Source: Tubulanus polymorphus (Eukaryota; Nemertea; Palaeonemertea; Tubulaniformes; Tubulanidae). Taken from it: DNA of 64,000 nt. The stretch covers positions 21,998,485 to 22,062,484 of the forward strand of contig NC_134027.1 in NCBI RefSeq assembly GCF_964204645.1. Direction: 5' to 3'. Shown here piece after piece: positions 9,551 through 54,200 of the stretch. How positions within the stretch are numbered: position 1 is the stretch's first letter; the number at the start of each line of letters is the position of its first letter. Both the position numbers and the translations under genes were made by a program. Under the pieces are notes generated by a model. It was not told the DNA's origin. It ran no database searches and saw only the letters and a list, made by a program, of their open reading frames with translations.

Positions 9551-9564
9551 AAGCACAGAAGGTA

Positions 9565-17400: not shown

Positions 17401-18390
17401 TGGAACAACGGCTAGTACTAGACTACTCCAACAGCCGTTGCAAGCTGCAAGGAAATTTAACTTCTTCGCCACATACGAGCTTGGAGTAATCATTTGACAA
17501 ATCATTTTAGTCAAATGATTACTCCAAGATACGAGGAAGTCAATTTGTTTAGTTACAACGGAATTTCGGGTTAATGATTCCAGGACTTTTCATCCCTAGA
17601 TATATCAACAACCGAAAGGGCGTTACCGGCCCTTGAGGGCCGCAACTATACCAAAATACGCTGAAGCTTATCAGCTGGTGGCGCCCCGTAGTGGAGGTTG
17701 TATATACCGCCATTAAGCGACTGGAGATCGAGACTCCAGTAGTGAAACAGTGTGACTGTGTATATGCATGGATAATTACACGATATAATGCGACAAATTC
17801 GATAACACTTCCTCCGTATAGGCCAATTTACTTGTAAATATCCGTAGAGAATTATGCTATAGAACCCCCGCACGACCCGCGTTGCAGTTACCGGATAAAA
17901 AAACGAAACGATGGATTGGATACCTCGAGTTCCGCGAAAAAATTCGCTGATTTTACCTGAAATAAAAAATCCATTCACGCACAGATTAAAACTGAGTTGG
18001 TGCGATTGGATTAAGGTAAGAAGATAGACTTCCAAAGACACTTAATTGAGTCTGTGGTGTCGGTAGCATCCTAGCCATTTTGCTCACTGTAAGTGTATAG
18101 GTATATAGCCTATATGCTGCGCTGGTGAGCAAGTGCAATCTTGATTTTTTATTCCAATTTTATGCCAAAAAAGAAGTAAATTTTGTCAATTTAACTTGAA
18201 AAAGTTTTTCACCAAACCTCATCATGAAAGCCTGTTTATATGGAACTAAATTCATGCACTATTTTAAACTTATGATCTGACTTCGGGCCAAGACACAATT
18301 ATTTCACCGCTAACAACAGAATGAGTAGTAGTTACAATTTGATGCCCTGGAAGGAAGGGTTCGGCTATGAAAAGGGGTCTCTATGAGTCG
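14471..18390. other. Intergenic; foldback repeats, no supported gene
   Basis: About 15646-15812 contains foldback units with tatagactggtatta and cagtctatgaaactgggcc-type ends (family of 62306-62417 and 56520-57135). A 49-base hairpin at 17480-17528 is listed separately. A possible orphan exon at 15971-16126 is discussed in the findings. Otherwise nothing recognisable. Confidence 0.4.
17473..17535. repeat. 49-nt perfect hairpin between 7-bp direct repeats
   Basis: Arms cttggagtaatcatttga (17480-17497) and tcaaatgattactccaag (17511-17528) are perfectly complementary over 18 bp with a 13-nt loop. The block is flanked by direct repeats atacgag at 17473-17479 and 17529-17535, which look like a target-site duplication. 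Confidence 0.6.
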
Positions 18391-21335: not shown

Positions 21336-21604
21336 AAAGGCGAAATGATAAATACCCTAAAGTGCTGGAGATAATTTGAAAATTTTGAAAAATTCCACCC
21401 TAGTGTGTTGAATATGGGAATATAGTGTGGCGGTGTATCGTAAGTTACTATTATTTCACTATGTTTGACAGGTACTACCATCTTTCAATGGAGATAACTA
21501 ATTACTAATTACACCAATACACTGCAGTGCGCTAGCGGTGTACTAGCAAAATCCATCACCGATTTATACACCGCACTGCGGTGTAGATGCACTGAAAGGG
21601 TTAA
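21336..21604 (+). mobile_element. piggyBac-like MITE, left end degraded
   Basis: The body matches the family (ataccctaaagtgctggag, ccaccctagtgtgttgaata, tcactatgtttgacaggt) and the right end GCACTGAAAGGG TTAA is intact at 21604. The left CCCTTTCAGTGC end is not recognisable. Confidence 0.65.
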
Positions 21605-23338: not shown

Positions 23339-23620
23339 TTAACCCTTTCAGTGCTGACTAAATAATACCCTATAGTGCTGGAGATAATTTAAAAGAATTC
23401 CACCCTAGTGTGTTGAATAAGGGGAATACCACTATAGTGTGTCTACACCGCCGCGCAGTGTATCGTTAGTTACTAGTATTTCACTATGTTTGACAGGTGA
23501 GACTGCCATTTTTCAAGAGAGATAATCACTAATTACATCAATACGCCGCAGAGCAATGTATTAGCAAAAATCTATCACTGATTTGTACACCGCACTGTGT
23601 AGACGCACTGAAAGGGTTAA
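23339..23620 (+). mobile_element. piggyBac-like MITE, complete
   Basis: TTAA CCCTTTCAGTGC at 23339 to GCACTGAAAGGG TTAA at 23620, with the standard interior including subterminal inverted segments. Confidence 0.8.
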
Positions 23621-28428: not shown

Positions 28429-28680
28429 TTAACGCTTTCAGTGCGTCTACTCCGCAGTGCGGTGTATAAATCAGAGATAGATTTTGCTAGTACACTGCAT
28501 TGCGGTGTATTGATGTAATTGGTAATTAGTAATTATCTCCTTGAAAAATGGCAGCATGTGTCAAACATAGTGAAATACTAGTAACTAACGATACACCGCA
28601 CCACAGTGTAGACGCACTATGGTGGTATTCCCGTTGTTCAACACACTAGGGTGGAATTTTTTAGAATTTTCAAAACACAT
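28429..28680 (-). mobile_element. piggyBac-like MITE, reverse orientation, truncated
   Basis: Begins ttaacgctttcagtgcgtct at 28429, i.e. the reversed right end, and runs through the inverted interior to cacactagggtggaattttt and ttttcaaaac. The other terminal repeat is missing. Confidence 0.65.
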
Positions 28681-29190: not shown

Positions 29191-29690
29191 AGGCAATTCC
29201 AAGGTGCGAATACCCCCTACGTTCTGACGGGTTCGTGTACCGATAATATCTTGTATATATAATGGCTCAATCAACCCTTGCCTTCTTCAAATTCGTTAAT
29301 CTGGTCTCCGATCCATCCAGCTTTATTCAGCCTCGCCGCACGTTTGTTGGAAATGTACGGCTTACAACGAGCTGTCGGCATTATCTGACAAAACGTATGG
29401 ACAGTATGGAAGTTAAGGATCCAATTACCAGTAATTCAGTGCTGGCTTGGTGTATAAAGGACACGTGACGCATCTTATTCTGGCTGCCTAAAGATGGTTA
29501 ACGGACAATCTCGATACCTTTTACCTTAATGATATCAGTGTTCTCCATTTGCTGGGATTTTGGAGGGCTGCATTCATTTTCAGTGTAACATGGCCACCAA
29601 ACACCAATGGCGTGAAGCGTTTCGTAGGGTGCCGAGGTGTCCTTGCCTAAACTTGTTCAGCATCGATAGAACAAGACTGACGTGTAACGT

Positions 29691-30140: not shown

Positions 30141-30283
30141 ATAGCGATAATGACAGTGACTATATTCCCGTTGAGGTGTATGTTGATAATATTAATCGTG
30201 ATAGCCGCGTGGCCGATCGGGTTCGTGTGTTTATACGGCGTAACCGAGGACGAGAACAGTAAACCGTTCGTCGGATGGAGACG
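30141..30283 (+). CDS. LPCAT2: LPCAT exon: membrane segment
   Basis: Acceptor tattttcag ends 30140; donor gtaaga. Encodes IAIMTVTIFPLRCMLIILIV then IAAWPIGFVCLYGV and PFVGWRR, corresponding to the N-terminal hydrophobic hairpin and GWRR of vertebrate LPCAT2. Starts in phase 0 and ends with two bases of an Arg codon. The ATG inside is not the gene start, since the homologous region lies about 55-60 residues into the protein. Confidence 0.88.
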
Positions 30284-33200
30284 GTAAGATTTCCAATCTT
30301 CGAACTTTCGTCATTGCGGGGGATACGGGGGCCAGTCGCTCAGGATGAATATATGTTGACGGTGCGGTTTTAATTTTTCGACTAGCAACTGGTTAACTGT
30401 AACTAACTTTCGAGCGACTGGTTCCTGGTCTATTTATTATGCCCCCAGTTTGCCACTTTTTCCTGTTTTGCCCCTTTCGAGTATATTAAGAGTAAAAAAC
30501 GGTTTGATTGTAGTTTGCCCCGCCGCGTTTCAACTAAAACACCTGCTGGGGCCGGTTGCATAGTCATGGCTTAGTCTTAAGACCAGTCTATAGCCAATCT
30601 AACAACTTAAGACCAGTCTTAAGATTTAAAGCCTAGCGCACATCGACACAGCGATTGGAGACAACTAGTTGCTACCGAACGATTACCCCGCGCACATCGA
30701 AATCTAGTTACGGCCGGTCAGTTGCAGCAACTGCATGGCACGTGTCGATCGTCGAGATCCAGAGCGCGCACATCGACGGATATGACTGCGATTGAGTACA
30801 ACCAGTTGCTCAAAATTAGAACATGGGCAACTGGCTGGAACTGGAGATAGATCGACGCTTACCAATCGTAAGCTCGCTCACATCGACACATTCAAGCAAC
30901 TGATCGTATCCAGCCAGTTGCTCTCGTGCGCCGAAAACTGCCTTGCAACTAGTTGTCTCCAATCGCAGTGTCGATGTGCGCTAGGCTTAAGACCACTTTT
31001 GGACTTAAGTCACGACTGTGCAACTGGCCCCTGGTGCTAGTTCCATAGTCATGGCTTAGACATAAGACAAATTTAAGGCCATATTAGTTCTATTAGCTAT
31101 TTTAACAACTTAAGAGTTAAGACCATTTTTGGACGAAAGTCTCGACTATGGTACCAGCCCCTGTGTTTTTTTGCCTATTTTGGATTTCGAGTGAAATGTA
31201 AGAAATTAAGTAGATTTATGGAGAAGGCCAACTGCGAGCGAACCTGCGTCGAATCTTCCAGAATCAGATGAGGATGCGTCCATTTTGAGGTCACCAACAA
31301 GGGGCCAAGAGTCGTAAGACCATCTTGGTTTTTCAGGGAAGGGAATCAAACAACTTAAAACGGTCTTATGTTTGAAATTCATCTATGGATTTAACTCGTC
31401 AGTCCGGACTTGACTGCAACTTCTACTTGGGAGAAGCTGCTAAGAGCTCAATTGCTAATATGAAATATCAAGATACACTTCCTAAAATCAGAATAATTTC
31501 CTGTTGATTTTCAACCGCTTCGTTTGATGTCAAATTACTCTCATTTTTTTAGGGGTAACTACTACAAATAGCGATATCAGGTAGTCAGTCCGGACCTGGC
31601 CCTGGAATGATAAGTGGCTATAGTAAAGCGGGTTTATGCCTTCTGAGTTGTTTTCTGGTTCACCGACTGAATGAGTCTCATGTTCTTAAATTAGCTCAAT
31701 TCATAATCTTAAACTCTTTGCACAACGAATGTGTTATTAGCGCAGGGCTAATGCATTCGTTTAATACTCGTTTAATACACAGCTCGCCTGTGGTGATAGT
31801 TATAGACAGGGTTTTAGTACATGAGCGATTAGCGATCAGGGTCAGGGACAATAATCATTAATGAATCGTGGCGGCGAATCAGAGTCATCGGTGAATCAGA
31901 GAATGATATTCATTCCTGCTATACTCAATATTGACACTACCGGTATGTGTGTATATATAATGAGGCTACTCGCTGAATGTGTTTACATCATCTGGGAGTT
32001 GATTCATTCTCGGTGTTCGTGTACTACTATCATCGGAGTGGACGAGTTTGTTACATCTACTCCTCAAAAACCTGTCGAGCCCAATGCGCATTACGCAGGG
32101 AAGCACACAAACATGGAATCCAATATGTTTCATCTCCTCGGAAACGTTTTTTTCTGGTTTCTCGTGAATGCGCACAACGCCGGAAAATGCTCGTAAACAT
32201 CGGATTCTGTTTCCTGTTTTTTGTGTTTGTCTGCAACATGTGCTTTTTTGGGCGAGTAATAATCTCGTGGTTTTGTAAAGCGTTCACTCCATTAGCAATA
32301 GATAGTAGATTCTGGGTAACATTTTCTCCGCGTGCATGAGGAAAGCGTATTTCATCGGTCTTCGTTGCCATCTTCATTGCGTGCAAAGAAAATATTACCG
32401 AAAATCTAACGGTTCCTAACAAATAGTTTTGAGAAGTCGGCGTTCCTGTTCTCTTTGTAGTTCTACAGTCATCATACGGTTGTGGGGGTACGGGATATTC
32501 GGGGTTCTGCATCATATACCAGGATTGTAAAGGGGGCTTGTACAGAGTCGCGTATCCCTATAAAACTTCTTGTGAAGGGCAGTGCCCTAATACCGTGTTA
32601 GGACTGGCCAAATTTATTTGTGCTGTCTTCTGAACGGACAGTAGAGCCTAGCTTTTTGGAAAGGGAATGGCGCTTTCTTAATGGAAAACTGCGTAACCTT
32701 TTTTTTGTAAGGATGGTACGAAAAGAGCTGCACGATGTCTACAGCCCTCAGGAAATTATGAGAATAACAGTAATGATGATAGTAAATCGAGCAATTCATA
32801 AAGCGCCTTCTACATCATATTACACGCCCGAAGCGCTTCTTCCTCAGGGAACGACTTGCGAAACAGCCGTCTTTTTAAATTGATCAATGCTGTTAGAAGA
32901 TCTTATGTCGTTTGGTAAATTGGTTCACGATCCAAAATATGGACGTATCAAGGGGCATTCTGAGTGTATCTATATGAAGTATCGTTTGGTTGGCAAAATT
33001 AGGGGGTGGCTATCTGCTGCCCCTACAAGAGTGGATATCAATATTCTATCAATGCTGATGATTGCTTTGAAATAGTCCTATATTGAAATGCATTGTATAG
33101 CTTATGCGACAAGTAGCCTGAGATACTCCATCCGAGTGTGTTGAACAACGGGAATACCACTATAGTGCGTCTACACTGCGGTGCGGTGTATCGTTAGTTA

Positions 33201-36200
33201 CTAGTATTTCACTATGTTTGACCCGTGCTGCCATTTTTCAAGAGAGATAATTACTAATTACATCAATACACCCCAGTGCGGTGTACTAGCAAAATCTATC
33301 ACTGACTTATACACCGCACTGCGGTGTAGACGCACTTAAAGGGTTAATCCTTAACGCGCCTCAGTTTTTTTTTCTATGTTCGTCGTACGAGTACGAATTC
33401 TTCTCTTTCTCGATCGGAACCGCCGTTTTCCGATTTTTGTTTTTTTTTCTCATCATGTTTTCTCTTCGCAGCGTTCTACGCCGATGCATCGAGATACTGT
33501 GGCGCAGCATGTTCTTCGTCGGCGGCTTCCACTGGATCACCGTCAAAGGGCAGCGGGCGAGCGCGCGACAGGCGCCGATCCTGGCCCTGGCGCCGCACTC
33601 TTCATTCCTCGACACGATGTTACCGGGCACCGTTCTGCAAGCTACGTCGCCCGTAGCGAAAGCCGCAGCCGCCGATATATTTTTATTTGGACGTACGAAC
33701 TAATTATCAGTCTTCGTTCGATTCGTTTTTAGCCCACTTGGGACTTTTGCGTTCACTTTTCGTCCGTCGTCCGTCCGTAGACGGAATCCAGTTATTTTGG
33801 GAAGTTTTGAAGACGCTTCAAGGTAATGTCTTGATATTTGGTTTATACATGTATCTACCCTAGACACATCTGCAGCCCAAAAACTGGCCCTGTCAGAATC
33901 AAGATGGTCGACTGGCAGCCATTGTTGTTCGCCACTTTTTACACATTTTCGAAGTTTACGAGGGAAATTTTGAAGATGCATTGATCAATTACCTTGGTCT
34001 TGCGATTATATTTGAACCTACCAAGGGCCCATCAGCAAAAGAAAAATTGGTTCCATATGACTCAAGATGGCCGTCCTATGACCTTTTTAGTGCCCAAAAA
34101 TGTCAATTTTGGCCAAAATTCTAGGTCCTGCAGCTTCCTACTGGTTTGCCATTTCTCATTGCAATTTGTGATGGGTATTCTTTGTAAAGGGATGTTTTTA
34201 TCTGAGACCGGTATTTTTGATCCGCCAAATATGACGCAATTGGCGGCCATCTTGGTGTCATTAGTACTCATTCGTAGGTGGGAAAAAGTTTTCCGACATT
34301 ATATTGATACCTAAGCATATTTTGTTACAGCAATGAATTAGAAAGTTATAGCATATAACGTGTTCTATGATTGGGGTGAGTTTCAAGTTCATTGTTTTTT
34401 GTATATGGCCACCAGGGGGTGTTGAATAATACAATATCTTAGTATTTCTATATTATATTCGTACCAATACATATTTTGTTACCGCAATCAATTGCAAAGT
34501 TGTGGCTCATGACATCATCTATGATTGTGGTGAGTTTTAAGGAAATTAGTTATTCTATATGGTCACCAGGGGGCGTTGAATAGTAGAATAACCTGGTATT
34601 TCCTTATTATATTGGTACCTAGGCATATTATGTTACCATGATCAATTGCAAAGTTGTAGTTCGTGACATGTTCTATGAATATGGTGAGTAACAAGGTTAT
34701 TGGGTTTTGAATATCGTCACCAGGGGGCATTGAATAGTAGAATAACTTAGTATTTCCATATTAAATTGGTAACGAGGCATTTTTTGTTATCACAATCAAT
34801 TACAAAATCGTAGCTGCTGACATGTTTTATGATTGTATTGAGTTTCAAAGTCATTGGTATTTGTATATGGTCACCAGAGGGCGTCGAATATTGAAATTGT
34901 TAGATTGTTGAGCATTTGAAACCACTTCCCAAGTGGGCATGTGTCCCTGGACCCCTAGTTTGTTTTTGTTTTATTAGAGTACATATGTATGTATGCGCAT
35001 GTGTGTTGGAGTGTGAATGAAATCAGTTCCAGAATATAGAACGATAACCGCACTCAAACGTGGTGAACGGATAATAAGATAAAAACCCACTATCTACAGA
35101 TTAAAAGAATTTAAAATCAAGAATTTATTTATTCGATCTAAAATATATAGAATACACGACGTTTCGATCTCACCCTAGACATCGTCGTCAGGTGCGTCAC
35201 GCCTGACGATGATCTCTAGGGTGAGACCAAAACGTTTCGGCTGTTCACTAACAGTCATCATCAGGTGGAATGACCAAAAAAAACAATCTGGTCACGTTTT
35301 TCTGGTCATTCCACCTGATGATGGCTGTTAGTCAACAGCCGAAACGTGGTTTCATAATAATAAATTTGATCGTATAATTTTTTAAATTCTAATTGTGGGA
35401 TTTCTTCATTTAACCAGTGGATAGTTGACATAGTGATAATTAAAAGTTCATTGTTACTACGGTTGTATCTATACACTGGTTATCTGTAACTGACTTTTGA
35501 GCTACTGGCCCCAGCAGGCGTATACTCGTAACATCCATATTTCGTTATAAAATCTGTTCTCAGTTTCGAACCATTTCGTTTCTTCCGTCAGCGAGAATCG
35601 CGTGCTGCGAGGGTTTAAAATCGAATTGAAGATCACTTTCAATTTTCACGCGATTTTTGCGTAGATTATTCATATTATTATATCACGGGATTGTGGTTAA
35701 GAAAAAAATATGTTTGCATTGTTCATTTATGTTTTTAGTACCGGGTATTGATCACGTTTAAAGAATAACAATATCAGAAGCTATAGTTTATTATTAGTGA
35801 TAGGGTGTGGTTGGCTTCTACTGGAGATGTATATGTACATATGTACGTGCGCCATGTTAAAAGGCTATGACCACTCTAGAGATTCCGGGCCTAGGAAATT
35901 ACCGTGCACTTATAAATCTTATGTGCCACAATGGGGAACCGGCAACACCGGCTATCCCGCCAGATGGCGTAACGAGCGCCTGGTCTTATGTAGTGAAATA
36001 GATACATTTTCGATGAACTTTGACCTGAATTTTTTTACTCCAGAATCAATATCGCTATATCACAGGACCTTCCAAGTACAAATTCAGATATCTGAATAGT
36101 TTCCATAATATTAGATCTATTTAAGGGAGTTTAAGTTCATTCAGTTTTCATGGAAATGTAGAAGAAATCGAACGCAGAAGACAGAGTTACTAAAACTAGT

Positions 36201-39200
36201 GGACCTGCTGGATCCTCGCTTGCCACAGGAGGTCGCAGGTTAACCATTGCTCGAATGTACATAGCCATGTTCGCGTAATTCTGCGCTTAGTAAACCCGCT
36301 TTAGTTCTTCATTCAGTGAACATGAACATGCAAATTCTTGTCAAATCACGTGTCGTTTAAATTAAAAGTACTTTTGCGATTCTAATTGCGGGTCAATCAA
36401 CAGCTGTGGTGAATGAACGACGTAAAATTGGGACGTAACACAACGGCGAATTTCGATTGAATAGATTAGAATTAAGTTCTATCGGGTGACCTCATTAAAG
36501 TTCTGTTGACCTTAAACAGCTATCGGGAAAAACTTGATAATAATATATCTAGATTATCTTTTACAGATTGTCCTAGGCCTATATATTAGCTGCGTTCACA
36601 CTAGGTGAACTAGTAGTTCCGTACTGATATACACGGCTTATAAGCGCGGAATGCGATTCCACGCCCAAAAGCCGATCTCAGTACGGCACTGAGCTGGCCA
36701 CGTATTTTCTGTAGTGTGAACGCAGATTCGGCGCTTAGCTAGCCACGTATTCACATCCTCGTAGTACAAAACACTGAACACTAATTACACTCCCCTCTAT
36801 TGGCACACTGGGTGACTACTATACTGGGCTTACTAAGTGCCGAATTGCTGACTCGTAGTGTGAATGTAACTGGCTGTATAAGTGCCGTATTTTGGTGAAT
36901 TCGGCACCAGCGAAGTACAGGACTTCGTAAGCGCCGAATCTAGTGCGAACGCGGCTATTGAAATCGATAACGCGCATATCTTTATTTACATTCATTTCAG
37001 AAAGACGTGCACTTCAATATTCGTTCTGACCCTTATCTATGTTCATCGAACTGATCATGCATTTGTTGAAAATTATTTCTTTAGACCTAGCTGCCAACTG
37101 TTCTCGTTACTATTTCGTGATAAGAAGTACCGATTTTATTTGTTTGATGCTTTATTTGTTTGATGCACCGTATACAGAAATATGAATGATGTCACCGAGG
37201 GTCTTACTGTTGATTACTGATCTAATGAGAACATTTTCTTTCATATTTCGATGAAATGTTACTGATAAGAATTCAATTCGTTACTGATAGCATTTTTCAG
37301 AGGTCAGAAGCCCGGTTTCGTTAATCAGTTCCCAAGGCAATAATAGCTGAGTGGGAGTAGCATTGAAAGGGTTAATTCCGTTTCGAACGCTAAAAACTGG
37401 CGTAGATACGAATGAATTTTATTGTAACTAATCGTACGACGTTTTTAATGATTTTTATAGGACTCTGATACGATTCTCGTTTAAACACGTCGGCCGAGCG
37501 GTGCTGTTTTTGTGCGGTTTTTATCGGATAAAGACGCGCGGTCGTCTGGCGACCAGCGCCGAAGCGCCGATCCTCTGCGTCGCGCCGCATTCGTCGTTCG
37601 TCAACGCGTTCGCGTATCTCGCCTGCGGATTGCCGACGGGTATATCGCGCGTCGAAAATCGCGACCTACCGATACTAGGAAGTATGATTTAATACTACTG
37701 ATCTTTGCTTGTAGCCGTCTTACGCATTTTGGTGACGGTTCTAACTTCGGTGACGTTGTCCCGGCCCAGTTTCATGGACATGGCCAGTTCTTCGATGTTT
37801 TTTTTTTTCACGAAACAGTATTTGAAATTTTGGAATCAATTCGTTATTTTCTGAAGCGGTAATAAAATCTGTCCTATTAAACTGGGGCCCTAGGTATGTT
37901 CTTTAGGTCCAGGTTCGAGATTAGGAAATGGGTCATACAATCGTAAAGTTGTTGTGAAAGTTGCCAGTGCAGTAGATTCCCGAAGCAGGGCATGCAGCAA
38001 GGAATGAACACGAAACCTGTAAGTGTTTATGGGTTTCGCTACTTCACTTTGCCCGCTATGGCACACTGATTAAAACAAGAAACACTGAAGCAAACCTAGC
38101 CATGTATGGATTGTATCACGTGGTATCAAAATGGGAATGATTTTGATCAGTCTCGTGATTTGCTTGTTTTTACTGACTAGTTATTGTGTATCTGTGTTTA
38201 ACTACTCCGATCGTCGCAAACGCATCAATCGAAACAAGTGTTCCAAGAAACGTACGGGCTGGTTACGCAGTGCGAAACAATATTGTGCTAAACAATGTTT
38301 TAGAGCTGTAAGCGCTGTCGTGAAACAGTGTTTCAGTAAACTATGTTTACGAGCAATGAGCACAGCCATGAAACTAGCCAGAAAAACATCTCCGTTTCCT
38401 GTTATGCGTTTATGCCCACGCTAGGCCTAACCCGTTTGCAGCCAGTCGCGATAGAACCTCGATTGCGCTGGTGTCCGAAAGTCATAATTCGACTAAGAAT
38501 TTGAATTTTATAAAAAAGAGCCTTTACCAGGGATGAAAATCTTGCGACCATAGACGGTCATTTCTGACTTTTTCTAACATTTTCTTTATTCCTGAGAACA
38601 GTGTTAATCACCTAAATCGCGGGCGTCACATCAGAGCGCTCTGTAGTTAGGAGTGCTCCTTAAGACAGTTTTCGGCAGTTGTTAGCACAACTGTGGAGTC
38701 GGAGAAACCAATATGGCGTCTCATTCAAAAAGCGGCTCTAATTCAGGCCCAAACTATTAACATTTTGACCAAAAGGAAGTAAGTTTTTTGGCTAAAAGTT
38801 ACTGATTTTTGTTCCCTCCCCCCCCCAATTTTTTTTTTTTGGAAAATATTTTCCAACTTGTTCAATATGGGCCGTTTTCATCCCTGCTATACCGTAGTTT
38901 TTCGATTGGTGCGTTTTAATTGATCAGAGTTATACAGAGTTGCCTATGCGCTGTTTTAGAATGAATCGTTCGAACTGACACAGCATGTCGAAGGCTATAT
39001 ATATGTGCATTTAATGAATTTTAAAACGGCTACAGGCAATTATCACATGTTCGCTTCGTAAATCAATTGTAGGGATCGGATTCCGCGGCTGTGACTCTTG
39101 TGTCGAGAGTTCAATGGAAGCGATCGAACTGATTCAGTTTCAGAAGTTCATGTTGCTCTACCTATTACGCGTAAGGTTTTATGGGTGTGGATAAACCTCG

Positions 39201-42200
39201 CATTTCCAAGCGGCCATAGTTACAGTAAGAAACCGCGATTGAAATGTATACTCGGTCGATAAAATCGGGGTGCTCCGGCTGGTGAAAATGGCTTCTCTTG
39301 TGTCGTACGTGTTCGGTCCGAAGTTCGCATCCGTTTTCTACACCTGGAAAAGGCGTAGTTAGATGAGGAGAAAAGATGTTTAATGACGGTTTATGGATTT
39401 TTAGTGCATGTTTTGGAATCGGTTGGTGTACGGCGACATCGATATTTTGTCCTTGTGATCGATTGACTAACTTGAATGTATGAAAATACTAAATTTCAGT
39501 GTGCTGCGCAAAATAATAGAATACAACTTAGAAATCTCTCTGCTGTGTTTCGTCGCTTGACAACGATATCGGAATGTTATATGCCAAAATTGGTTTTGTC
39601 TAAATCGGGCTCTTTTTGTAAAGCCGAAGAACTCCCATGGTTAGAAATGAACGTGAAACAGTAACGCCGCTACTTTAGTGACTGTACGCAGTGCGCTATG
39701 AACCCTAGTGCCGGCTGATTGGAAGTTCATACCCCTGGGGCCAGTTACTCAAACGTTGGTCGAAGATAACCGGTAGATAATACCGTAGTAACAATGAAAT
39801 TCTAATTGTCACTAAATGTCAACTATCCACCGGTTAGCTTAAACCAACTATTGAGCAACTGGCCCCAGAGTGTCGCAGATTTTCCAGTAACATAGCGGAA
39901 TACATAGTGAAAACTTGAATAACGACGTATGCTTTTGGGTGTGAAGTTAAACGTACATCGATTATTAAGCTCAGTCGACAACAATGACAAGATATCATTT
40001 GCACTAGTTAGAGGGCTTGTGATGCCTCAAGTGCGCAATGCAATATTGTGGCAATAATGTGACTGGCTACATGGGCAACGTGACCATGGCACTATTGGCA
40101 AGTTCCAATAATGCATCTTTGGCGCTGTATGGGCAAGTAGCAATGCGACTATGGTACTGTATGGGCAAGTCACAATGCAACTATGGCACTATATAGGCAA
40201 GTTGCAACAATGCAACTATGGGCACTATGGCCAAGTTGCGGTAATACATTTCTGGCACTGTATGGGCAACTTGCAATGTGACTGACACTGTAGGCAAGTT
40301 CCAATAATGTAACTATGGCACTCTATGGGCAAGTCGCCAGTTGCAATATGACTTGTGGCACTGTATGGCCAACTCCTAATGATGTTGTTACTGTGGCACT
40401 TATAGGGTTCAAAACTAACTTGTTTGGTCGCTGTGTGCAATGGTCAGCGTAGCTAAACAATACATGCGAATATGCAGTAACCGACCAATCAGCGGAAATG
40501 ATCATGGGCCATTTTGTTATCGCGCGATATAATACTAGTTTCCTACTTGAAAGTGGTGCTGTGGCCTTCTAGAGTTTGTAAGTCAAAATTTGACTGTGTG
40601 TTGATCTTGAATAAAACTGTTAGGCCTAACTAACAAGTGCCGAACTTGTTACGTTGAATAAAGATTAGTTACAATTGATGACCTTTCCATTCTCGGTGGC
40701 TTCAAATCTTCAGGAGAATTTTGTTATAAGTTACTTATGACGACCTCATTCGTCTCAGCAAGATTATGATTTAGTTGCTAATGATGACTTCATTCTTTGT
40801 GACTTCACAATATCAGTAGAATTATGATCGGTGATACAAAAATTCATTAAAATTACGATGAGTTAGTATTGATGGCTTTCTCATTCTAAAATTCTAAAAT
40901 GACTTCAAAACATCAGTAAAATTATAATTAGTTGGTAATGATGAATTACTTATTCTCAGTGACTCCAAAACATCAGTAAAATTCTAGTTGGTAATGATGA
41001 CTTCTTATCCTCATTGACTTCAAAACATCAGTAAATTGCTATTATAATTGATTGGTAAATGATAACTCTTATTCTCAGTGACTTCAAAACATCAGTGAAT
41101 TGCTTATTATAATTGATTGGTAAATGATAACTCTTATTCTCAGTGACTTCAAAACATCAGTGAATTGCTTATTATAATTGATTGGTAAATGATAACTCTA
41201 TTCTCAGTGACTCCAAAACATCAGTAAATTGCTTAAATCATAATTGATTGGTAATGATAACTATAATTCTCGGTGACTTCGAAACAATATCGTTAAAACA
41301 TCAGTAAAATTATGATTATGAATCGTTAGTATTGATGACTTTTTCATTCGCAGCTACTTAAAAACTTCGGTAAATCGCTTAATTTAGTTACGAATGCTCG
41401 TCGTGTAATTCTATTCGCGGAACCGATTCCTAGAAAGAAATAAAACTCTGAATTGATAATACGGTATGTAGACAGGCTATGTACAGCGAACGTCGATAAC
41501 GAGTTCGTACCCGGAACTAAAAACCAGTTTATCACGCCGGCTTCTAGTAAAAATGTAGATATTCCTAGGCACACTGGCTAATACGCGATTTCTATGTCGC
41601 CCGTAACATTATTAGTGTGCGTAGTGTATATTTCTATATAATGACAAAAGCGCCTGATATCGCGCTAGGCGCTTGAACCTGTATACTGTCGCAACTTGTC
41701 GAAAATGAATTTCTTTTTATACCGGTTACGCCCGAAAACATATGGAGTTTCATCGAGATTGAATGAAATTGATACTCATAATTGAAAGATTTTTTTGTTG
41801 TTGAATTATCGAGTAACCGCGATATATTTTTGTTTTGACATGCGAAATATAATTAGTGTTTGTTCGATTGTATTTAATGAATTAGATTGATACCTGGGTT
41901 ACAACTTAACTAGTAATGTTTATAGGTTACTGTCGAATCATTAAGTAACTGAGTTGAATAGATTTTTTTCAAAGACGCGAAATAGAAACTTTTGAAAGAA
42001 TTTGTACCCTGGTTGGCCTACATTTCTTCTACCTGTTAAGGCTATCCAATAAAGAAGTTTCCAGTTTCTAGGCGCCAATTTGTGGCGGTCCCTCGAGGTC
42101 CCAATTGTTGCGATAATTTGCGCTCATTTTTAAAACATAAGTTTAGATTGAATATCATAAAGTTCTGCAATCCCTTGCTCGACGAACTTAACTTATACAG

Positions 42201-45200
42201 CAATCTAAAGGAAATTAAATGCAGATATTTGCTGGCGATTCTTGGAATTTTTGAACGCAACAATTTAGAACAGTGACAATGTGAAACCAAGGACCGCATA
42301 TCTAAACCTCGCGTAAAAGAAATCGCAAATGCCAGCCCTAGGACTGTCAACATTTTGGCGGTATAACGAATGTGGCTGTTTAACGAAATGGCGATAGTGA
42401 GACATAGTATACAAGACATGACTATTGATCAAATACAGAATCGAGGTGGATTAATCTTGATTTAGGAAGCATAAAGGTCTTAGCGCATTTCATTTAGATA
42501 ATAGAAATGAATTGACAGTGATGCGTGATACTGCCGACCATATGTATCGATTCTTAACATAACAGATGGGTGAAATCTCGTCGACGAAAGATCGTTGGCA
42601 GTGCAACTACTATTTTCTCTATGAGTTCGAATAGGGCCGTTCTGGGATTTCGTTGGGGTTCTGGTGGAGGGTGAGAGGTGGTTTAACGAGAGCTATTTAC
42701 GTATTTGAAATGAACTGTGCACAAGGAAATTCTTGGCAATAGGTGAATTTGGCGGTATGACAAGCGTTGACTGTAGTTGCAATATTGTGGGTACGCAAAT
42801 TATGGATTGGGATTAGGATTTTGTTTACATTCCAACCATTTCTAAGGTACACGGAGGGAGACTATAAGATATACAATATGGTTACCCATCTGATGCTGCC
42901 CTCTAGTGGTAATTGAATCTTCATCATAATCTTAAGATGCCGGCGTTGTCCCCATAACTGTATGTGAAGGTGTGTGCATGTGTTGGTGTGTGTATGTTGG
43001 ATATCAGTTTCATGAAGATTTCTTCTTAAAAGAAATAAACCTCTTACGAAATTAAGAGCATTTAGCGCTCGTTTTATAGACTTGAGTTTTAGTAATAAAC
43101 TTTCGGCGTTTGTTTAGAAATTCAGGCGAACTGCTTTTGTAAGAAACAAATGCGAGAACTGATATGATGTGGTCGGAACTACGAAATTGAGACCGGGTCC
43201 TGAGGCCCATTAAAGTCCAAGTGGTCTTGAGTCCTCAGACTGATATCCATGCATATCTATTGAACTGACCCGAGCAAAATTTGGCCCGCGCTGAGCGAAG
43301 TGAGTCATTTCCAGAACCAGTTTCAACAATTTGACCTGTGCTGAAATTTTGCCCAGGTCTGGTCCAACATTTTTGGATGGGTTCACCGGGCACAAGCTCA
43401 TTTGGCACCCGTGTGAACAGTTGTTCCGGGCCTTGTATGCTCGTGTGATCGAAGGTTGCTGTCCAAATTAAGTGGTTTCACTAATACCAAGTCTATAAAA
43501 CAGCAGGGGCCAGTTGCTCAAAAGTTTGATAGAGTTAACCGGTGAATAGTTGACGTAGTGTCAATTTCATCATTACGATGGTAACTATCCACTGGTTAAA
43601 TAAATGAAGAAATCCCACACTTCGAATTTAAAATTATACGATCAAATTTATCATTATGAAACCGCAACGTTTCATGGCTGTTAGTAAACAGCCGAAACGT
43701 TGTGGTTTCATAATAATAAATTTGATCGTATAGGCCTAATTTTAAATTCGAAGTGTGGGATTTCTTCATTTATCTACAGTATACACAGATTATAGTGTTT
43801 ACTCGACAACTATCCACAGGTTATCTTAACCCAACTTTTGAGCAACCGGCGCCATCGGAAAACCGTATAGTCGCGGCTTAAATTCAAGCCCGGTTCAGCC
43901 GTCGATGAATGTTCGCTTAAATTTACTTACAGATTTGATTCGTACGACGCAGCCGGTCTACGTTTCGAGAGACAATCAAGGCTCGCGCATCGATACGATC
44001 GAAGAGATCAAACGCAGAGCCGTGTCCGGCGGGGCCTGGTCTCAGGTCATGATATTCCCGGAGGGAACTTGCACGAACCGATCGTGTTTGATCACGTTTA
44101 AACCAGGTTCGTACTCGGGGTCGGGTTCGATTGGATATGTCGGCGGCAGGGGCCGCATCGATGTGAAAAATGGCGATGAATTTCGAAAATCATTTTGAAA
44201 AATCTTTATGAAAATGTGAAAATTCAACTGATATAAGTGACTTGCTAACCTTTCCAGCGCTGACTAATTGATACTTAAGTGCTGGAGATGATTTGAAAGT
44301 ATTAAAAAATTCTACCCCAGTGTGACATATTATGGGCATACGGTGCATCTACACTTCGGTGCAGTGTATCGTTAGTTACTATATCACTGTTTGACCAGTG
44401 CTGTTTTTTTTAACACCCTCAACCCGCTAAGCGCCACACAGGGCATTATAAGCGCGTTCGATGTTTCTTTTTCCCAATGGGGGAGAGACCAGAGAAGAAC
44501 CTTCGACCAAGAAACTCTGTCGCCACCAGGGTTTGAACCCATAGACCCTGGATTGACGAGACCAGCGACCGGTGGCTTCACCCACTCAGCCACAGCGCCA
44601 CTCTGTGCTGTCATCTTTCAATGGAGATAAAAACGAATTACTAATAACATTGATACGCCGCAGTGTGGTGTACTAGCTAAGTCGATCACTGCGGTGTAGA
44701 TGCACTCAAAGGGGGTTAGAATATTTTGATCCCCTTAAACCATGTACCATGTACCATGGACCTCAGAATGAGTGTGCATGTATTCACAAGCTGCGTTAAA
44801 GATTAAGAAATTTCATTTCAATCAGTCCAGATTGCGATCGACAATCGCTAATGTTATTGCACCTCGACATGAAAAAAATGTGAAAAATCTGGAAAACTTA
44901 TGTTAGAGGAACGTGAAAAATTCTAGTAAATTTTGTTATGGGAAAGAAGTGAAAAAAGTCATTTGCAAAAAAATGGCTAAAGAGATTATACCTCGTTTCT
45001 TCTAATTGGTCGGTCCATTTTGTAAACAGCAATATAATGCTATGTAACTGCTAGGTGTGGTAAGCTTGATCATGATTTTTAAAAAAGTTATCTTTATGGT
45101 GGATGTACGGTCGGCCGGGTCAACTTTAAAGCTCAGAAATGAGAAACGAGTTGTCGATTTTTTTAGCCCGAGGATTACGAAAAAAAAAATTCGAAAATTC

Positions 45201-48200
45201 CAGAGTTCATCAATTGAACTCGTGTGTCAGTTCATATCCCGCGTGAAAAATGGTTATTGGACGCGGAGAGTGTATTCTATCGTTTTTCGCAGTCATCGCC
45301 CGCAGCATATCCACCCAGTATCGGCGGGTATAAATCCGCGAAGAATTCCGGCGTGCTTTTCGCTTTCGTGCGTCGACGCAAACGCAACGAGAGAAACTTT
45401 TTATGAGAAAGAAAGAAGTTGTCATCATCAAAACCAATTTGTTAACATACCCATCACCGCACGCACGTCCGAGTACCTCGGTTTCTATGGTTACCGTCGC
45501 GTAATCGGAAGGTGATGGTTGTTCTTTTTCGGCGGATGGTTTAACGTTCTAGGTCACGAGTAGTTGAAAACCCACTCACGAACTTTATAGTGATTGAAGT
45601 ACATCTCCATATTTGTATTCCGTCGATACGGTATCTATCTATCAGAGCGAGCATTGTGTGGGTTAGAGTTGTTAGAGCGTTCGACCGTGGGAAGCCAGGT
45701 CGTGGGTTCGAACCCCCCCCCCCCCCGTACATTACGATAATGTCCTCGGGCAAGACACTTCTCCTCATCGCCTCTTTCCCCCCTGGGAGTAAATGGGTAC
45801 CTGACCTGATAGATGACTCCTGAGCGCTTAGTAGTTGCTCGAATGTTACTTCAGGGAGAGATGACTGATGCATGATGAGTTATAAGCTGGGGGTAATAAT
45901 ACCAAATTTGGAGCCCATTTGAACAGACTCTTGTTTGGATACCTGCGCTATATCAATGACAATTATCATTATTATCTGTCCTCAGTACCACGAAATCGGG
46001 ACAAACTTGGGAATTTTGAAATGATATTCCCAGCACCTCTCTCTTTAAAATAGTAGCGCGATAGGTTGTTTAACCCTTTCAGTGCTGACTAATTAATACC
46101 CTATAGTGCTGGAGATAATTTGAAAATTCTAAAAAATTCCACCCTAGTGTGTTGAACAACGGAATACCACTATAGTGGGTCTACACCGCGGTGCAGTGTA
46201 TCGTAACTAGCTGATATTTCTCTATGTTTGACATGTGCTGCCATCTTTCAATAGAGATAAATACTAATTACATCAATATACCGCAGTGCGGTGTACTAGC
46301 AAAATGTATCACCGATTCATACGCCGCAATGCGGTGTAGACGCGCTGAAAAGGTTAAGTTTTTCTTGTTTCGCTCTATGGGTCGGTGAACTGAACATCGA
46401 AACGCGTAATCGCGAAATCTAATTCGCGTTTCGAGTTTTTTTTTTTTTTTTTTTCATATATCGAGCCTGAGACGCACGGCTTTATAAAACGAACGGATCG
46501 AAAACCGGTTTTGAATACCGAAACAGTAATAATCGATGTCTATTTTTAAACTATTATTTTAGGAGCTTTCATCCCAGGTGTGCCGGTTCAACCAGTCTGC
46601 ATTAGATATCCGAATAAAGTGGTAAGTTAGTATCAGCACACGCACGCGTGTGTAACTATCCCGATCAATCGATTCGAATTTCATGTTGTCGTACACGGTG
46701 CGAATATGATAAACAGATCCGATGAAATGAGATAACTATTGACCAGATCGTGTGTTGAAGTCGGGTTCACGAGGTCGATACATTAATCATTCTGAGATGA
46801 TTTCAATAATGATTGGTATTTACAGAATCCCCCAATGAACTAATATTAACGCCACGGCGAAGTAAGTTTCCCCCCCCCCACCCAAACTTGTGTTTATAAG
46901 ATTTTGACCTTAGAGTAGGGATTGACCCTGTTATTTATTTGATTGGTAGATTTCCTTCGATTTGGAGTCCCTTACAAACCCACCAGACCTGCAGGGACTG
47001 AAGCGAGGGGGAGGTGTGTTCGGTTTTAAAATCAGATATCGAATTACAGATGTATAGATATAGAGTTGTGTGCTGCCCATCACCTAGTCCGTTTGCTATG
47101 ACTTCTTCATGATTTCATCCGATTTGAGTCGAAAGACATTTTTGCGACCTTTCTCCCCGACCTAGTTGAACCAAAAAACCAACCTTATCAGTATAGAATT
47201 AGTTTATCATTCCGACCCTGATGATATCAGTTTTAAACTATTGTCTTAGTATGTTATCAATGTATTTTTGGCCTTTGATAGAGACTTTTAAATACTTTTT
47301 AAGTTGTGCAAAATGTATCGCCTGGTTTCTCAGACTATCAATCGTTCGGATATATTTTACCGTCAAATATTTGTATGACCTGACTTTCGAAATCAAACTC
47401 CTGATAAGTTATTTAAAACAAAGACAAATAAGAATTTATCAAAAAATCTGAATTTTCAGTTTTAAACTGAAAACTATTTTCAAGGAATGACAATTAATAT
47501 TGTTTTGTCTCAAACCGATCGATTTGGATTTTTAATGAATAAAATGGTCAACGTTTTGAATGATTTTTTGGCCATTTGATTGCGGGTTTGAGAATAATTA
47601 TGATCGCTTTCAAAATGATCGGAAAATTATCACGTGACTAAGCGAAATCGCAGCCATTTTGATGTTTTGTAATTGTCAGCGACATTGTTGTGAACCAAAC
47701 TTCAAAACGCGGAAACATAAGAAATTTTTTTGTATCAATTGCGCCGTGCTTTGCTTCAGAAAATCAATTGAAATATAGAACACGAAATTTTTATGGCCTT
47801 AAGGCTTGATATATAATACCGTATTGTTATTTGATATTACATTAATTCTGCCCTTAGTCGGTCGGAATTACCGGCTTTCAAATGTATTAACGATAAAACA
47901 CGTAGATTCTTTCTGACTAATGTTCTGTAATTTTTTTTTACATATATGAGTTAGAAAATCAGGAAATAAGTGTTTATTAGGAATGTTGAAAATATGTCGA
48001 GTATTCATTCATTGAATATCTCCCTGTTGTAGCAGAATAAAGCAAGAATTCACGCAACCTCCGGCATTATTCATACTCATTTCGCAACAGTTTCTACTTC
48101 TAGGTATCTGTGCAAAAAGATGGAATAATTTTTAATAAGGGGGAATTTTTTAGGGAAAATGGTTTTGCCTTCCAGGGGCGGATATAGGACATTAGTGGGA

Positions 48201-51200
48201 CTGGGGTCCATCCAGTAGAAACTACAAGCAGGGTCCCACCCTTGGTATTAGATATTTTAGAAGAAAAACGTCTGAAAATATGCTATTTCTGAAAGGATGT
48301 GTGTCAAATTTGCAGGTTTTAATGACCTTTGATTTGACAAAAAGGGCAACCTCAGTGGGAAGGCAGGGGTCCGGACCCCCGAAATCCACCCCTGAAAACA
48401 TAAAAAAACTCAAGCCGCAACCCGTGATCAAAACGCGTGAACCCTAGATTGTCTAGTGAGACCAGTACGCGGCTCCCACTGAAAATTCTAAAATGCCCTC
48501 ATTTGACGTGTTGCGTATGATTCGAATTGTTTTTCGAATTTAATATTTCATTCGCTTCGTTTCATTCCAGGACACGGTTACATGGACGTGGGATGGCCCA
48601 GCCGCGTAAGTATCAAACTGTATATAGATCTTGTCGGTGTAATAAAAGTTTTTCCGATTCCGAGTGCTTGCCTTGTCGACGATACAAGTGAGCCCTCCGG
48701 TCAGGATCGCCCGGTCATTAGGAAAAATTATACCATCGAGTCGTCCTGAATATGATTGAACTATTTGAGTAATAGCTTCTACTCTTTTTTAAGAACCTGA
48801 CCACTCCCAAAAATGTCAAATATCAAAATATTTTCAAAATCAGAATAATTTCTATTTCATTTTTATATCAGCTACAATTTTTGATATTAGTTTAGCGTCA
48901 CTTTTTGGGAGAACTACTACAAATAGAGATTGGGTATTCTGGTCTGCAACAACAGTAAAATGTAATTTTCTCGTTTTTTTTCAGCGCGATGATTTTCTGG
49001 ATAACTTTGTGTCAGTTGCACAACAAAATGGAGGTCGAGGTACGTCAGACGTGGTAACGGGAGGTGCGGGCGGCGGTTCTGCGTACGAGACGACGTCGAT
49101 AATTTCAATGATGGGGAGTTACCACGTTACGGGCGCACATGTGCTACGCAAAGATTTACAGTGATTATTTGTATGAGTTCATACATCAGCTGTTGCGCAG
49201 CTATTGACCTATTGTTCGCGGAAAACGTCTGTTGTTACCAAGAAATTCCGGCTATATGTCATATATATGATATGTACATGCGTATCGATCGGAACTCTCA
49301 TTAAATTCATTCATGAATGAGTTGAAATTTCGTGAATCGTTTTCGGGTCGCAGTCGCTTCGGCTGTTCTAGTTCCACAGTCGTGAATACATGTCCTTAAA
49401 ATAGTGATTGTCCCCGTTATTTATTTAATCGGTAGATTTCGATTGATTTTTTGATCGAATGTCTCTTACAAACCCGCCGCACCCGCCGGGAGCGAAACCA
49501 GGTACAGGTATAGTTGTGTGATCGGCGGTCAAATTTACAGAATTTTTTTGCTTAAATCGAAGTACATAATTGGGAAATTCGGTTCCGGTTCATTCAAAAA
49601 ATCTTCCATTCAGCCTGAACCGGCAAACGACTGATTGGGTTTGGCTGCCTATAATACATCGAAATTTTGGAAATATTGATTGGGAAATTCAATTCCGGTT
49701 CATGTTCCATAAAGCATAACTGTTGAACTGGATCCAGAAAATGAACACAACTGTGGAACTGGGTTCAGAGTCGGATTACATCAACATCTGTAGATTCTGA
49801 GTCTAATTAAACCCACATATCTTTTTAATTGAAACAGAAAATTTAAAAAAACTGTAGAACTGGGTTCACAGTCGGATGTAACCAACAACTATGCATCCGG
49901 ACTGTGAGTCAAAGTAGTAAATACTTTTAACAATCGTTGAACTGGATCCAAAGTGAAATCAAACCACACAGCTGTGGATCTGGACCCCGAGTTGAGTTAT
50001 AACAACACGACAGTGGAAAAATGAAGAAATCCCACACTTCGATTTTAAAATTATACGATCAAATGTATTATTATGAAACCACAACGTTTCGGCTGTTGTT
50101 GACTAACAGCCATCATCAGGTGGAATGACCAGAAAAACAAGTAACAAAGCATATAAACTCACAGGATCTAAAATAGAAGCAGTGTGTCAAAACTAAAGAT
50201 AAACAGACCAAGCAGTTTTTTAGTGTGGGATTTCTTCATTTATCTACAGTATACACGGATTATAGTGTTTATCCGACAACTAACGACAGTGGAACAAGGT
50301 CCTAAGTTGAATTGAACCCACCCAACGACGGAATTGCATTCAGAGTCAAATTCAAAATCGTGGTTTATGGCTCACGAGGCTGTAGTACTAACCGTCGTTC
50401 TTCGCTTAGAATAAAGTTATCTTATATTTCCATTCGACAGTTTCTACCGGTGCACGTGCCGACTGATGAAGAAATCGCCAATCCGAAACTATTCGCGAGT
50501 GCAGTCCGTACCAAAATGGCTCAGTAAGTATAATGACTTTGTCCGGTGAAACAAAAATAGAGAACTGCGGATTTAAGCCTGAAGCACACAGAACGATTTT
50601 AATGGATGGAGACTTATATTAAGATATTTTGATCAGCCTCAATAGCACAGTGGGATAAGGCTTGATGCTGTTGCATTCACTAGCAGTACTGAGTGACAAG
50701 TGGGTTCGAGTTCTGCTGGCTGCTTTCGGTGTGCTAGCAACAATTCAACGGCCCTCTCATGGTTAGGTGGAATGGCAGGGTGGCCATTGGCCTGGGAAAA
50801 CCTGGAAAACTCGGGAATCAAAATAATCTAGACAAAAATCAGGTTATTTGACAAATTATACCAAAAACCGGTAAAACTCAGGGAATTCGGTTTATGTTAT
50901 CAACCGCCAGTACGTGATTCAATGAAAAATTAATGAATCGTAACATTTTAAACCTAGAAATTTCTTGTGATTCATTCAGAGAATTATGTGTTATCGCCGG
51001 GAAAACTCCGGGGATTCGTAGATGGGTGGAAAGTGGCCATCCTGATTTGGGTTAGTCATGGGGAAACCGAGATCGACATCAAGTAAAAAGTATCGCGAGA
51101 AATGTGTGAATTATGAATGTTGCGTACAGTAAAACCTCCCTTAGTGAACACCTCTATTTAGTAAACACCTCCCTTAGTGAACACTTTTTGCCCGGAACCA

Positions 51201-54200
51201 AATTTTCCCTATTCATTTTCAATTAAACAGAACCTCCATTTAGTGAACACCTCTCTATAGTGAACAGTGAACACTTTCTCTGGTACCAAATGAGCATTTT
51301 ACCTCTCTATAGTGAACAGTAGCCCCATCCCAGACGTGTATTTCGTGTATGCGCATTTTAATACGTGTATTTCGATACGTGTATTTCAGGTGTTTAAAGA
51401 TACCGGTCACCGATCATACTTTCGACGATTGTAAACTGATGGTATACGCGGCGAAACGTAAACTGCCGATGGCGACGGGGCTGATCGAATTTCAGAAACT
51501 CAGTCGTCGATTGGGGTGAGTCGAATTGACGTTTCGCGATCGATGTGAGATTCGAAACTTTCGCGGAAGTCGAATCGATTTTCGAGAGTCATCGAGATGC
51601 GATACGATGTATAACATTATTTTCGTTTAACAATCTAACGACTTTGACGAAAAACCAGTGAACATTCGTAGTATATAAATTTGGTATGAAGCTCTGTTCG
51701 GATGCAAAAATTAGCTTATACAATTATATACAGCCCTGAGTGAAAAAAGCAAAGAAAAAAGTGTAGTTATTGTGCATGTGCGAAAAAAGACTGATTTTAG
51801 TGTTTGACTTAGTAATGACAGTTTGACTGTAATAGCAAATGAGATTACATGTACTTTCAAGAAATACACATAAAGCCAAGCTCAGGTTGTCTGACGACCT
51901 GATCAGCAATAGTATACACTCGACTGCTTACTGCCGATTCATTTGTCTCACAATCTTAAGAGCACTCGGGTCGACTATGACTCGATCATCGCTTAGTCTA
52001 AAAGTCATGTGATGCAAAACTTTTCGCTGATTGGCTACGACGATCTGATCGGCTTACGACCGGTCCGCGATCGATTCGTTGCGGTCGTAAGTACACTCAC
52101 GTCGAAAAGGTTCCCGATGAAAAAATTGCAGACTCGACTGCTTACGATCCGATCGGATCTTAGTCGACCTGTGCTCGGCATTAGAGTATACATGTACTTT
52201 TGTAGTATCGACGTATAGCTACCATTAGAAATAAAACCTCGACCACCAGTGAGGCTACTGAAATTGTAAATCCCACTCTTGAGACTAAATTAGCTACCTA
52301 AAACTGGTGAAAATGATCTGAGTGATACCAAGCTCCAGTTTAATCTTAGTTATTCGGTGAAATTTTAATAGATTCACGCAATCTTATCTATAAATATAAA
52401 TGTATGTTTTTCAGATTGAAATACGACAAAATTAAAGAATTACTGGAAAAATTTTCGAATATATCGAATAAACACGGTCAGATAACGATCGACGAGTTCT
52501 CCGAACACCTCGGGTTACCCGTGTCGCAACCACTTCAACATCTCTTCTCATTATACGATAGAGTAAGTGTCGATATCATCGGCATCCATGGAAACTGCCT
52601 CGTCGACCTGGTTTCGTGGCGTTCCCCGCAGGTGGCGCCGGGTTCGCGAAGCGCCCACCGAATGTTTGAAATAAATCGATCAGTCGACGATTATCCCTAT
52701 TTCAACGCGCATCCCAAAGTGTCGTCGTGCATACGACGAGAAATAAATCTGGAAATCTATAAAAATCCGTGAAAACCAAAAACTTGAAAGAATTCAGGGA
52801 ATTCGGATAATGTTATTGACTCCTGAGCACCTAGCAGCTGCTCGGATGTTACCTCTCCCCAGGGAGAGATGACTGATACATGGAATAGAGTTATAGGCTG
52901 GGGGTAATAATACCAAGTTTGAAACGCATTTGACCAAGACTCTAGTTTGGATACCTGCGCTATATAAATGTCAATTATTATTATTAGTATTATTGTTATT
53001 ATTATTATTATAATTATTATTATTGACTGCGTGTTTCTTGATCAGTACGGGATTGGATGAAAAATGAATGAATTGTCACGTTTTTAATCCTAGAAATTTA
53101 TCCGATTCACTGAGGAATTATGTGTAATCACATGGAAAAATCGGGGAAAACTCGGGGAATTTGTAAATGGTTGTAAAGTGGCTGCGACGCTGTAAGTAAT
53201 GTATCGTGTTGTTTGTTGTAGGATGGGTCTGGTTCGATTGATTTTCGAGAGTACGTGATCGGTTTATCGCTGATATCGATGCCGGCCAATACAGAAGAAA
53301 CCATTCAACTAGCATTCAAGGTTAGTTCGTTCGAACGACCGCTCGCAGTTCTCGATTGAAATTGGAAATTATTATATGCTATCACTGGTCAGTCCGTTCT
53401 AATTTGGCCTGTGCCGGGAAGAGAGAAATTCTTAACAGACCGAGTGAATGCTGAGCATTAACATATATAAAAATCAGCTGGTATAACTGGTCCAGCTGGA
53501 TGCGACACTTGTGATTAACAGGCAATTAAACCTAGAGAAATGGTCCATTTTAAAATGGACTGGTCATTTTGCTTTGTCTTTTGGTCAATTTTTGGAATGG
53601 GCTTTGAATTCAGAATGTTATAAATAAGTTAGCTTAGACAGGGCTATTGAATCGAATTTGTCCTCAGTTGCCAGATAATAAGTTTCCGAGACTAAGTCTT
53701 CTTGGTTGCGGCTTTCTGGTCTCTCAATTGGTGACGTGCCCCAGTGGATAAATCTCTCCTTAACTTTGGAAGGCAGAAAAATCGATAAAAAGGATGAAAA
53801 ATTTGACTATGATCACTCGCGATGAATATGTATATATATATATCATTTTATGTGTTTACAGTTGTTTGATGTAGATGGAGATGGTTTTATATCGCGCGAA
53901 GATTTAACAACGATTTTACATCAAGCGTTTAGTATGAATGAGTTTGATGTCGAGAAATTATTCGCCGACGTTCACACTGCTAGAAACGGCAAAATTTCTT
54001 TTGGTAAGTATTCGAAATGCGCGGCGTCGAATCGGATTTATGATTTCTATTAAAAAAATAAATCATTACGATCATTATGATGACGATGATGCTTAAGCCC
54101 CTATTTCAACCGGGCGCTTTACTGATAGTTCCATTAGTTCCCCAGGACCCAGTTCTACAGTTGTGAGTTAGAGTTAACTCTGAGTTAAATTAGTTCATTT

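Follow-up and report, generated by a model that had tools for sequence, protein, structure and literature searches.

Lysophosphatidylcholine acyltransferases (LPCATs) remodel phosphatidylcholine and reside on lipid droplets, and mammalian LPCAT2 also makes platelet-activating factor (PMC4280512). A PEGT motif III with a Cys is a trait of the LPCAT1/2 type (PMC4280512). All GPAT/AGPAT enzymes have the HXXXXD motif (HX4D, motif I), whose Asp is thought to form a charge relay with the His; activity was abolished by D109N or D109E in human AGPAT1 and by changing H135 or the Asp to Ala in mouse LPCAT1 (review PMC4280512). An Asp-His charge relay was also proposed in PMC4792965. Mutually exclusive exons are already known as a kind of gene arrangement, and the published criteria for them are similar length, homology, matching splice sites, and reading frame (PMC3923563). 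Here we describe a 64,000-nucleotide stretch of the Tubulanus polymorphus genome (NC_134027.1, positions 21,998,485 to 22,062,484, forward strand), called the window below and numbered from its first letter, which contains one LPCAT1/2-type gene with two alternative exons over motif I, exon A and exon B. From the sequence, mutually exclusive splicing appears to be the best reading of this pair. In exon B, an Asn occupies the position of the catalytic Asp; this replacement, absent from the original prediction made for this DNA, is the main point of our analysis.

The gene lies on the plus strand from 17911 to 54985, with 13 coding exons per transcript. Its coding sequence was rebuilt between an ATG at 17911, taken as the start, and a TGA stop at 54983-54985. 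Exon A spans 33472-33692 and exon B 37461-37681, and both are located between an upstream exon, U (30141-30283), which has AG/GT borders, encodes a hydrophobic, probably transmembrane segment and hands on two bases, and a downstream exon, D (43933-44106), which encodes VSR and then PEGTC (motif III). Each of the two alternative exons is 221 nt long, receives two bases, hands on one, and has AG/GT borders, and both encode the same protein segment. When the sequence was read again, these lengths, coordinates, phases, and borders were as originally given. The flanking exons had been described as single copy, and a tblastn search of the window indeed found no second set of them.

The reading frame depends on the choice between the two exons. 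With A alone or B alone, the frame was kept, and the product was a 506-amino-acid (aa) protein ending at the stop at 54983, with an acyltransferase domain and EF hands in either form. When A was joined to B, a stop appeared at 37466, six bases into B, leaving 158 aa; when both were skipped, the stop was at 44099, inside exon D, leaving 138 aa. The break of frame foreseen for the use of both exons or neither, with the stop of the neither route within 43933-44106, was thus confirmed. The stops of both failed routes lie many exons upstream of the last exon junction, and nonsense-mediated mRNA decay (NMD) of such transcripts is expected. The pair combines similar length, splice-site pattern, and frame with homology through the HX4D/N motif and with unproductive joint inclusion or skipping. 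A survey of human clusters of mutually exclusive exons found exons whose length is not a multiple of three in 377 clusters (60%) (PMC5740500), and the frame logic found here therefore follows a known pattern. The mutually exclusive use that had been proposed is well supported by this anatomy, as a claim drawn from sequence rather than from RNA.

Exons A and B were then compared with each other. A global alignment gave 23 identities of 73, where the original prediction of an old duplication had counted about 20. The local alignment covered 47 residues, 18 of them identical, and scored 95, a value reached in 0 of 5,000 shuffles. The similarity was carried by the part through the HX4D/N motif (0/5,000 shuffles); the segment after the motif was not significantly similar on its own (499/5,000 shuffles). 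Common origin could be demonstrated by alignment for the first two thirds of the exons, and equal length and phase point to the same origin for the remaining third. The proposed duplication thus held beyond chance, though only through the motif. Both exons also look coding. With codon and background tables trained on the same gene, from its introns and remaining exons, A had a codon log-likelihood of 12.6 and B of 11.4; in five introns, the highest value among the 449 open windows (of 16,517 windows) was 4.0.

No convincing third copy of the exon was found in the window by tblastn at E≤10. In this search, the peptides of the N-terminal exon (N), U, A, B, and D each matched their own place, and A and B matched each other with an E value of about 1e-8. 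The other matches were short, and we take the best of them, a 15-residue match of the N peptide at 29409-29453 (E 0.018), as chance. The genome searched was a 268-Mb assembly of 77 contigs. All four matches listed in a genome-wide protein search with the A form at E≤0.1, and both of those listed for exon B at E≤1, were inside the LPCAT gene, in a kind of search that may overlook weak matches. A scan of the contigs with the A/B alignment gave 39 stretches with the pattern, none of them a relative. Elsewhere in the genome, at G000:C1:23094500-23104400 (locus L007), two copies of exons with NHRTRLDW, presumably of the LCLAT1-like family, occur at about 10-1400 and 8004-9583 of that locus. They lie in three collinear blocks that are 82 to 90% identical (one exon was translated), and a tandem gene duplication, at least a partial one, is a more probable source for them than an exon pair.

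The main difference between the two exons concerns the catalytic motif. Exon A encodes APHSSFLD, in which HX4D is intact (HSSFLD), whereas exon B encodes APHSSFVN, that is, HX4N (HSSFVN), with the Asn codon AAC at 37603-37605. Two sets of relatives were used for comparison. The first was composed of bacterial loci fetched with another acyltransferase of the same genome; the best 80 of at least 544 relatives were taken, 58 of the 80 being Pseudomonas by their titles, and 70 had a usable open reading frame, while 10 were dropped. All 70 had the His and an Asp exactly five places on, and none had Asn. For the second set, four bacterial genomes gave 29 matches to PF01553, of which all but the two weakest were used (27 sequences); the aligned catalytic position was D in 26, E in 1, and N in none. 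A Pro usual in the family, found in 70/70 and 21/27 sequences of the two sets (Phe in 3/27), is kept in B and replaced by Phe in A (33680-33682). A keeps the Lys found seven places before that Pro (70/70 and 11/27), and B has Arg there. Both exons thus deviate from what is usual in the family, each at sites of its own.

Given HX4N in exon B and the loss of activity of AGPAT1 upon the change of Asp to Asn, form B is predicted to be inactive or strongly impaired. If B is used, catalytic impairment of its product is likely, judging from the sequence. Form A is probably a working lysophosphatidylcholine acyltransferase. The original prediction that one gene makes two enzymes is weakened: that both products are working enzymes is doubtful because of the HX4N of B, the inactivity of the corresponding AGPAT1 mutant, and the absence of N from all 70 and all 27 bacterial relatives. 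Two active forms, differing in their preference for acyl-CoA or acceptor, with B using another acidic residue, would be compatible with the fact that the exons for motifs II to IV are common to both forms and that the similarity of A and B after motif I is not significant. A gate-domain exon pair in ACSL1/6 was proposed to alter gating and selectivity (PMC1543647), and the enzyme PatA relies on a different acidic residue to serve its catalytic His (PMC4792965). We nevertheless consider two active enzymes unlikely, since D-to-N abolished AGPAT1 activity and no N was found at the catalytic Asp among the sampled relatives.

A-to-I editing that would restore the Asp codon (AAC to GAC at 37603) was also considered. 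No long duplex was found over the site, and editing there is unlikely. The site was base paired in folds of ±100 nt and unpaired in those of ±200 and ±300 nt, and the bases beside 37603 differ from what we take to be the favored editing context.

Taken together, we lean toward a gene with a mutually exclusive exon pair over motif I, in which A would give the enzyme and B an impaired, splice-controlled pseudoenzyme. An old tandem duplication of the motif-I exon in a single LPCAT1/2-type gene would have produced the pair, and each transcript would take either A or B. Transcripts with both or neither would be frameshifted, stop early, and presumably be destroyed by NMD. Form B would keep the membrane anchor, motifs II to IV, and the EF hands and would have lost the Asp of the charge relay; it could act as a calcium-responsive partner at membranes or lipid droplets, as a competitor, or as a means to lower LPCAT output. 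If so, exon choice could switch lipid remodeling off or provide a noncatalytic role.

Several points weigh against this reading of the pair. The Asn of B depends on one base in one assembly. Exon A may be altered as well, given the Phe at the usual Pro and an alanine run. The peptide of exon B by itself had no Pfam match at E≤1, and that of exon A gave a subthreshold match of 14.9 bits. Both sets of relatives are bacterial, and they overlap, as loci of the first set had led to the four genomes of the second. In the second set, the acidic residue was five places after the His in 19/27 sequences and 6, 7, or 12 places after it in 8/27, so its place is not rigid. The case of PatA also means that form B could be active through a substitute relay. 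Among the 904 GTs between U and D, 41 score as high as the donor of A and 116 as high as that of B; among the 696 AGs, 51 score as high as the acceptor of A and 7 as high as that of B (own sites included in each count). With many sites scoring as high, splice scores by themselves do not prove the sites of A and B. Finally, the reading comes from one assembly of one species and from genomic sequence, not RNA.

The last point and the splice scores bear on the question of whether both exons are used. With matrices derived from the LPCAT gene alone, the donors scored 5.43 (A) and 2.92 (B), and ten other donors of the gene scored 5.78 to 9.8 (the donor of exon N was not scored); the acceptors, 3.73 (A) and 7.52 (B), were unremarkable. 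Weak donors such as those of A and B are a common trait of alternative exons. The low donor score of B and its missing catalytic Asp would also suit a gene that uses a single exon and carries the second as an unexpressed relic or as noise. However, exon B has accumulated no stop or frameshift since an old duplication (23/73 identities), and its splice dinucleotides, exact length, and coding-like codon usage are all in place. We therefore regard a relic as improbable, and both exons are very probably used. It is also conceivable that B belongs to a different type of transcript, e.g., one with an alternative first exon located in the A-B intron, which, at 3,768 nt, has room for a promoter. The incoming phase of B is the same as that of A, and its acceptor is one of only seven AGs between U and D with so high a score, so such a transcript seems highly improbable.

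If A and B are indeed mutually exclusive, exclusivity could be imposed in several ways. Steric exclusion was ruled out because the 3,768-nt intron between A and B is too long for it. A mismatch of minor and major spliceosomes was rejected, as neither donor looked U12-like by eye. Pairing of docking and selector RNA sequences was not convincing. The k-mers common to both exon flanks (500 nt on each side) whose complement also occurs in the three introns were counted and compared with those in 20 shuffles, and the counts were mostly within the shuffle range: 13 k-mers at k=8 (null mean, 8.6; maximum, 18), 3 at k=9 (mean, 1.05; maximum, 4), one T-rich 10-mer at k=10 against 0 in the shuffles, and none at k=11. 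The A-B and B-D introns share six exact complements of at least 14 nt, the longest being 22 nt, and the U-A and B-D introns share one of 14 nt; by eye, these complements look like dispersed repeats. TCTCTT was found upstream of A only, and TGCATG was not found within 300 nt of A or B; both observations are uninformative.

The original prediction also held that one exon looks LPCAT1-like and the other LPCAT2-like in its second half. Provisional sequences of human LPCAT1, LPCAT2, and LPCAT4, typed by hand, were used for comparison, and all the tree results that follow are model dependent and a lead only. A tree of the exon segment put A and LPCAT1 on one side and B and LPCAT2/4 on the other (ultrafast bootstrap, 94). 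When a bacterial PlsC was added, B grouped with LPCAT2/4 at 88, and LPCAT1 paired with PlsC at 56, not with A. Under LG+G4, a topology with A and B as sisters had a P value of 0.043 in the approximately unbiased (AU) test and of 0.0625 in the Kishino-Hasegawa and Shimodaira-Hasegawa tests, which did not reject it. The AU values under other models were 0.0625 (WAG+G4), 0.194 (JTT+G4), 0.017 (LG), and 0.052 (LG+F+G4). Tested by part, the second part of the exon carried the signal, with an AU value of 0.044, and the first part was uninformative (0.31). With A alone and the three human sequences, A was placed with LPCAT1 (AU, 0.98; other positions, 0.02). With B alone (four sequences), the best position was outside LPCAT2 plus LPCAT4, on the LPCAT1 side (0.72), followed by LPCAT4 (0.34) and LPCAT2 (0.09); such a position is consistent with B being the sister of LPCAT2/4 but falls short of showing it. 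The shared exons favored neither LPCAT2 (0.72) nor LPCAT1 (0.35), and a position beside LPCAT4 was marginal (0.049). The assignment thus received moderate support from these provisional human sequences as far as the grouping is concerned, and B alone was not placed.

If the grouping of A with LPCAT1 and of B with LPCAT2/4 is real, the exon pair would be as old as the split of LPCAT1 and LPCAT2. It is then imaginable, though doubtful, that the pair is ancestral: a pre-vertebrate LPCAT would have chosen between an LPCAT1-like and an LPCAT2/4-like exon, each vertebrate duplicate would have fixed one of them, and B would have lost its Asp later, in the lineage studied here. In that case, the loss would have turned exon choice in this lineage into a switch between enzyme and pseudoenzyme, and a match of A and B to vertebrate LPCAT1 and LPCAT2/4 would make a clean case of duplicated genes replacing splice forms. 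Vertebrate LPCAT1 and LPCAT2 adjoin SLC6 genes, which suggests genome-duplication pairs. Such synteny was not found at the present locus: of the 149 SLC6 matches listed (82 of 316 candidates scored), not one lies nearby.

The remainder of the gene agrees with an LPCAT1/2-type enzyme, as both traits of this type, motif III PEGT with Cys (PEGTC, exon D) and EF hands, are present. On the plus strand, the N-terminal coding exon N (17911-18015) runs from the ATG to a GT, has 35 codons with an NPF motif, and ends in phase 0; it was assigned from its open reading frame and a GTAAGA donor, and its start is inferred. The VSR of exon D is presumably acyltransferase motif II, and the VPVQPV encoded by exon 4 (46563-46621) is what we take to be motif IV. 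Exons 5 (48571-48605), 6 (48985-49039), 7 (50441-50523), 8 (51390-51515), and 9 (52415-52562) follow, then exons 10 (53222-53320) and 11 (53862-54003), which cover the EF-hand region, and the last coding exon (54855-54985) with the TGA stop, all on the same strand. When the forms were examined without exon N (471 aa), the Pfam Acyltransferase family PF01553 matched form A with 67.4 bits and form B with 52.2 bits (cut-off, 23), and the EF-hand pair gave 68.4 bits in each. A search of the PDB with the acyltransferase part listed five chains, none of them named LPCAT, and the only credible relative among them was bacterial PlsC (5kym; E 0.0027). Rfam gave no match at the gathering threshold in window positions 29000-56000.

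The window contains other features. At 13136-14116, on the minus strand, there is an unbroken 326-codon protein kinase frame (Pfam Pkinase, 91.4 bits) that resembles casein kinase 1. The matched kinase domain is without introns, and the frame is possibly a retrocopy. A recurrent intronic element is present at approximately 21340-21600, 23350-23620, 28430-28660, 33160-33350, 44320-44710, and 46080-46350. By eye, it has arms around CACCGCAGTGCGGTGTA and adjoins a sequence with CAGTGCTGACTAAT; it looks like a family of the miniature inverted-repeat transposable element type. Tandem arrays were found at 34290-34890 (period, 154), in the A-B intron; at 40086-40334 (period, 32/133) and 40900-41286 (period, 65), in the B-D intron; and at 56700-57130 (period, 123).

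Compared with known systems, the gene resembles mammalian LPCAT1 and LPCAT2 in its PEGT-C motif III and EF hands (PMC4280512). Unlike these enzymes, which are encoded by separate genes, it has two motif-I exons in one gene, with HX4N in B. Drosophila likewise has one gene predicted to be the LPCAT1/2 ortholog, CG32699, whose product has LPCAT activity; the words "splice" and "exon" have no match in the main text of the paper describing it (PMC4293825), and a similar exon pair in the fly is conceivable. The muscle myosin heavy chain offers a parallel in that one arthropod gene with exon clusters corresponds to many vertebrate genes, but it is a motor protein, and its clusters tune muscle properties (PMC3912159). 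In fly CG42249, one of nine events of mutually exclusive exons at catalytic residues, the exon swap alters such residues; this enzyme is of another family, likely a nucleotidase according to the authors (PMC7954323). Human ACSL1 and ACSL6 have, like the gene described here, a mutually exclusive pair that swaps a functional segment of a lipid enzyme, but there a gate residue changes between Phe and Tyr, and forms without both exons exist (PMC1543647). In line with the original statement, a literature search confined largely to the main text of openly available papers brought up no account of such an exon pair in an LPCAT, which does not show that the pair is unpublished. In the LPCAT pair, compared with that of ACSL1/6, the catalytic motif itself is swapped, one copy is without the Asp, and a double skip breaks the frame. 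What makes the pair novel is the type of enzyme, its location across motif I, and the missing catalytic Asp of one copy.

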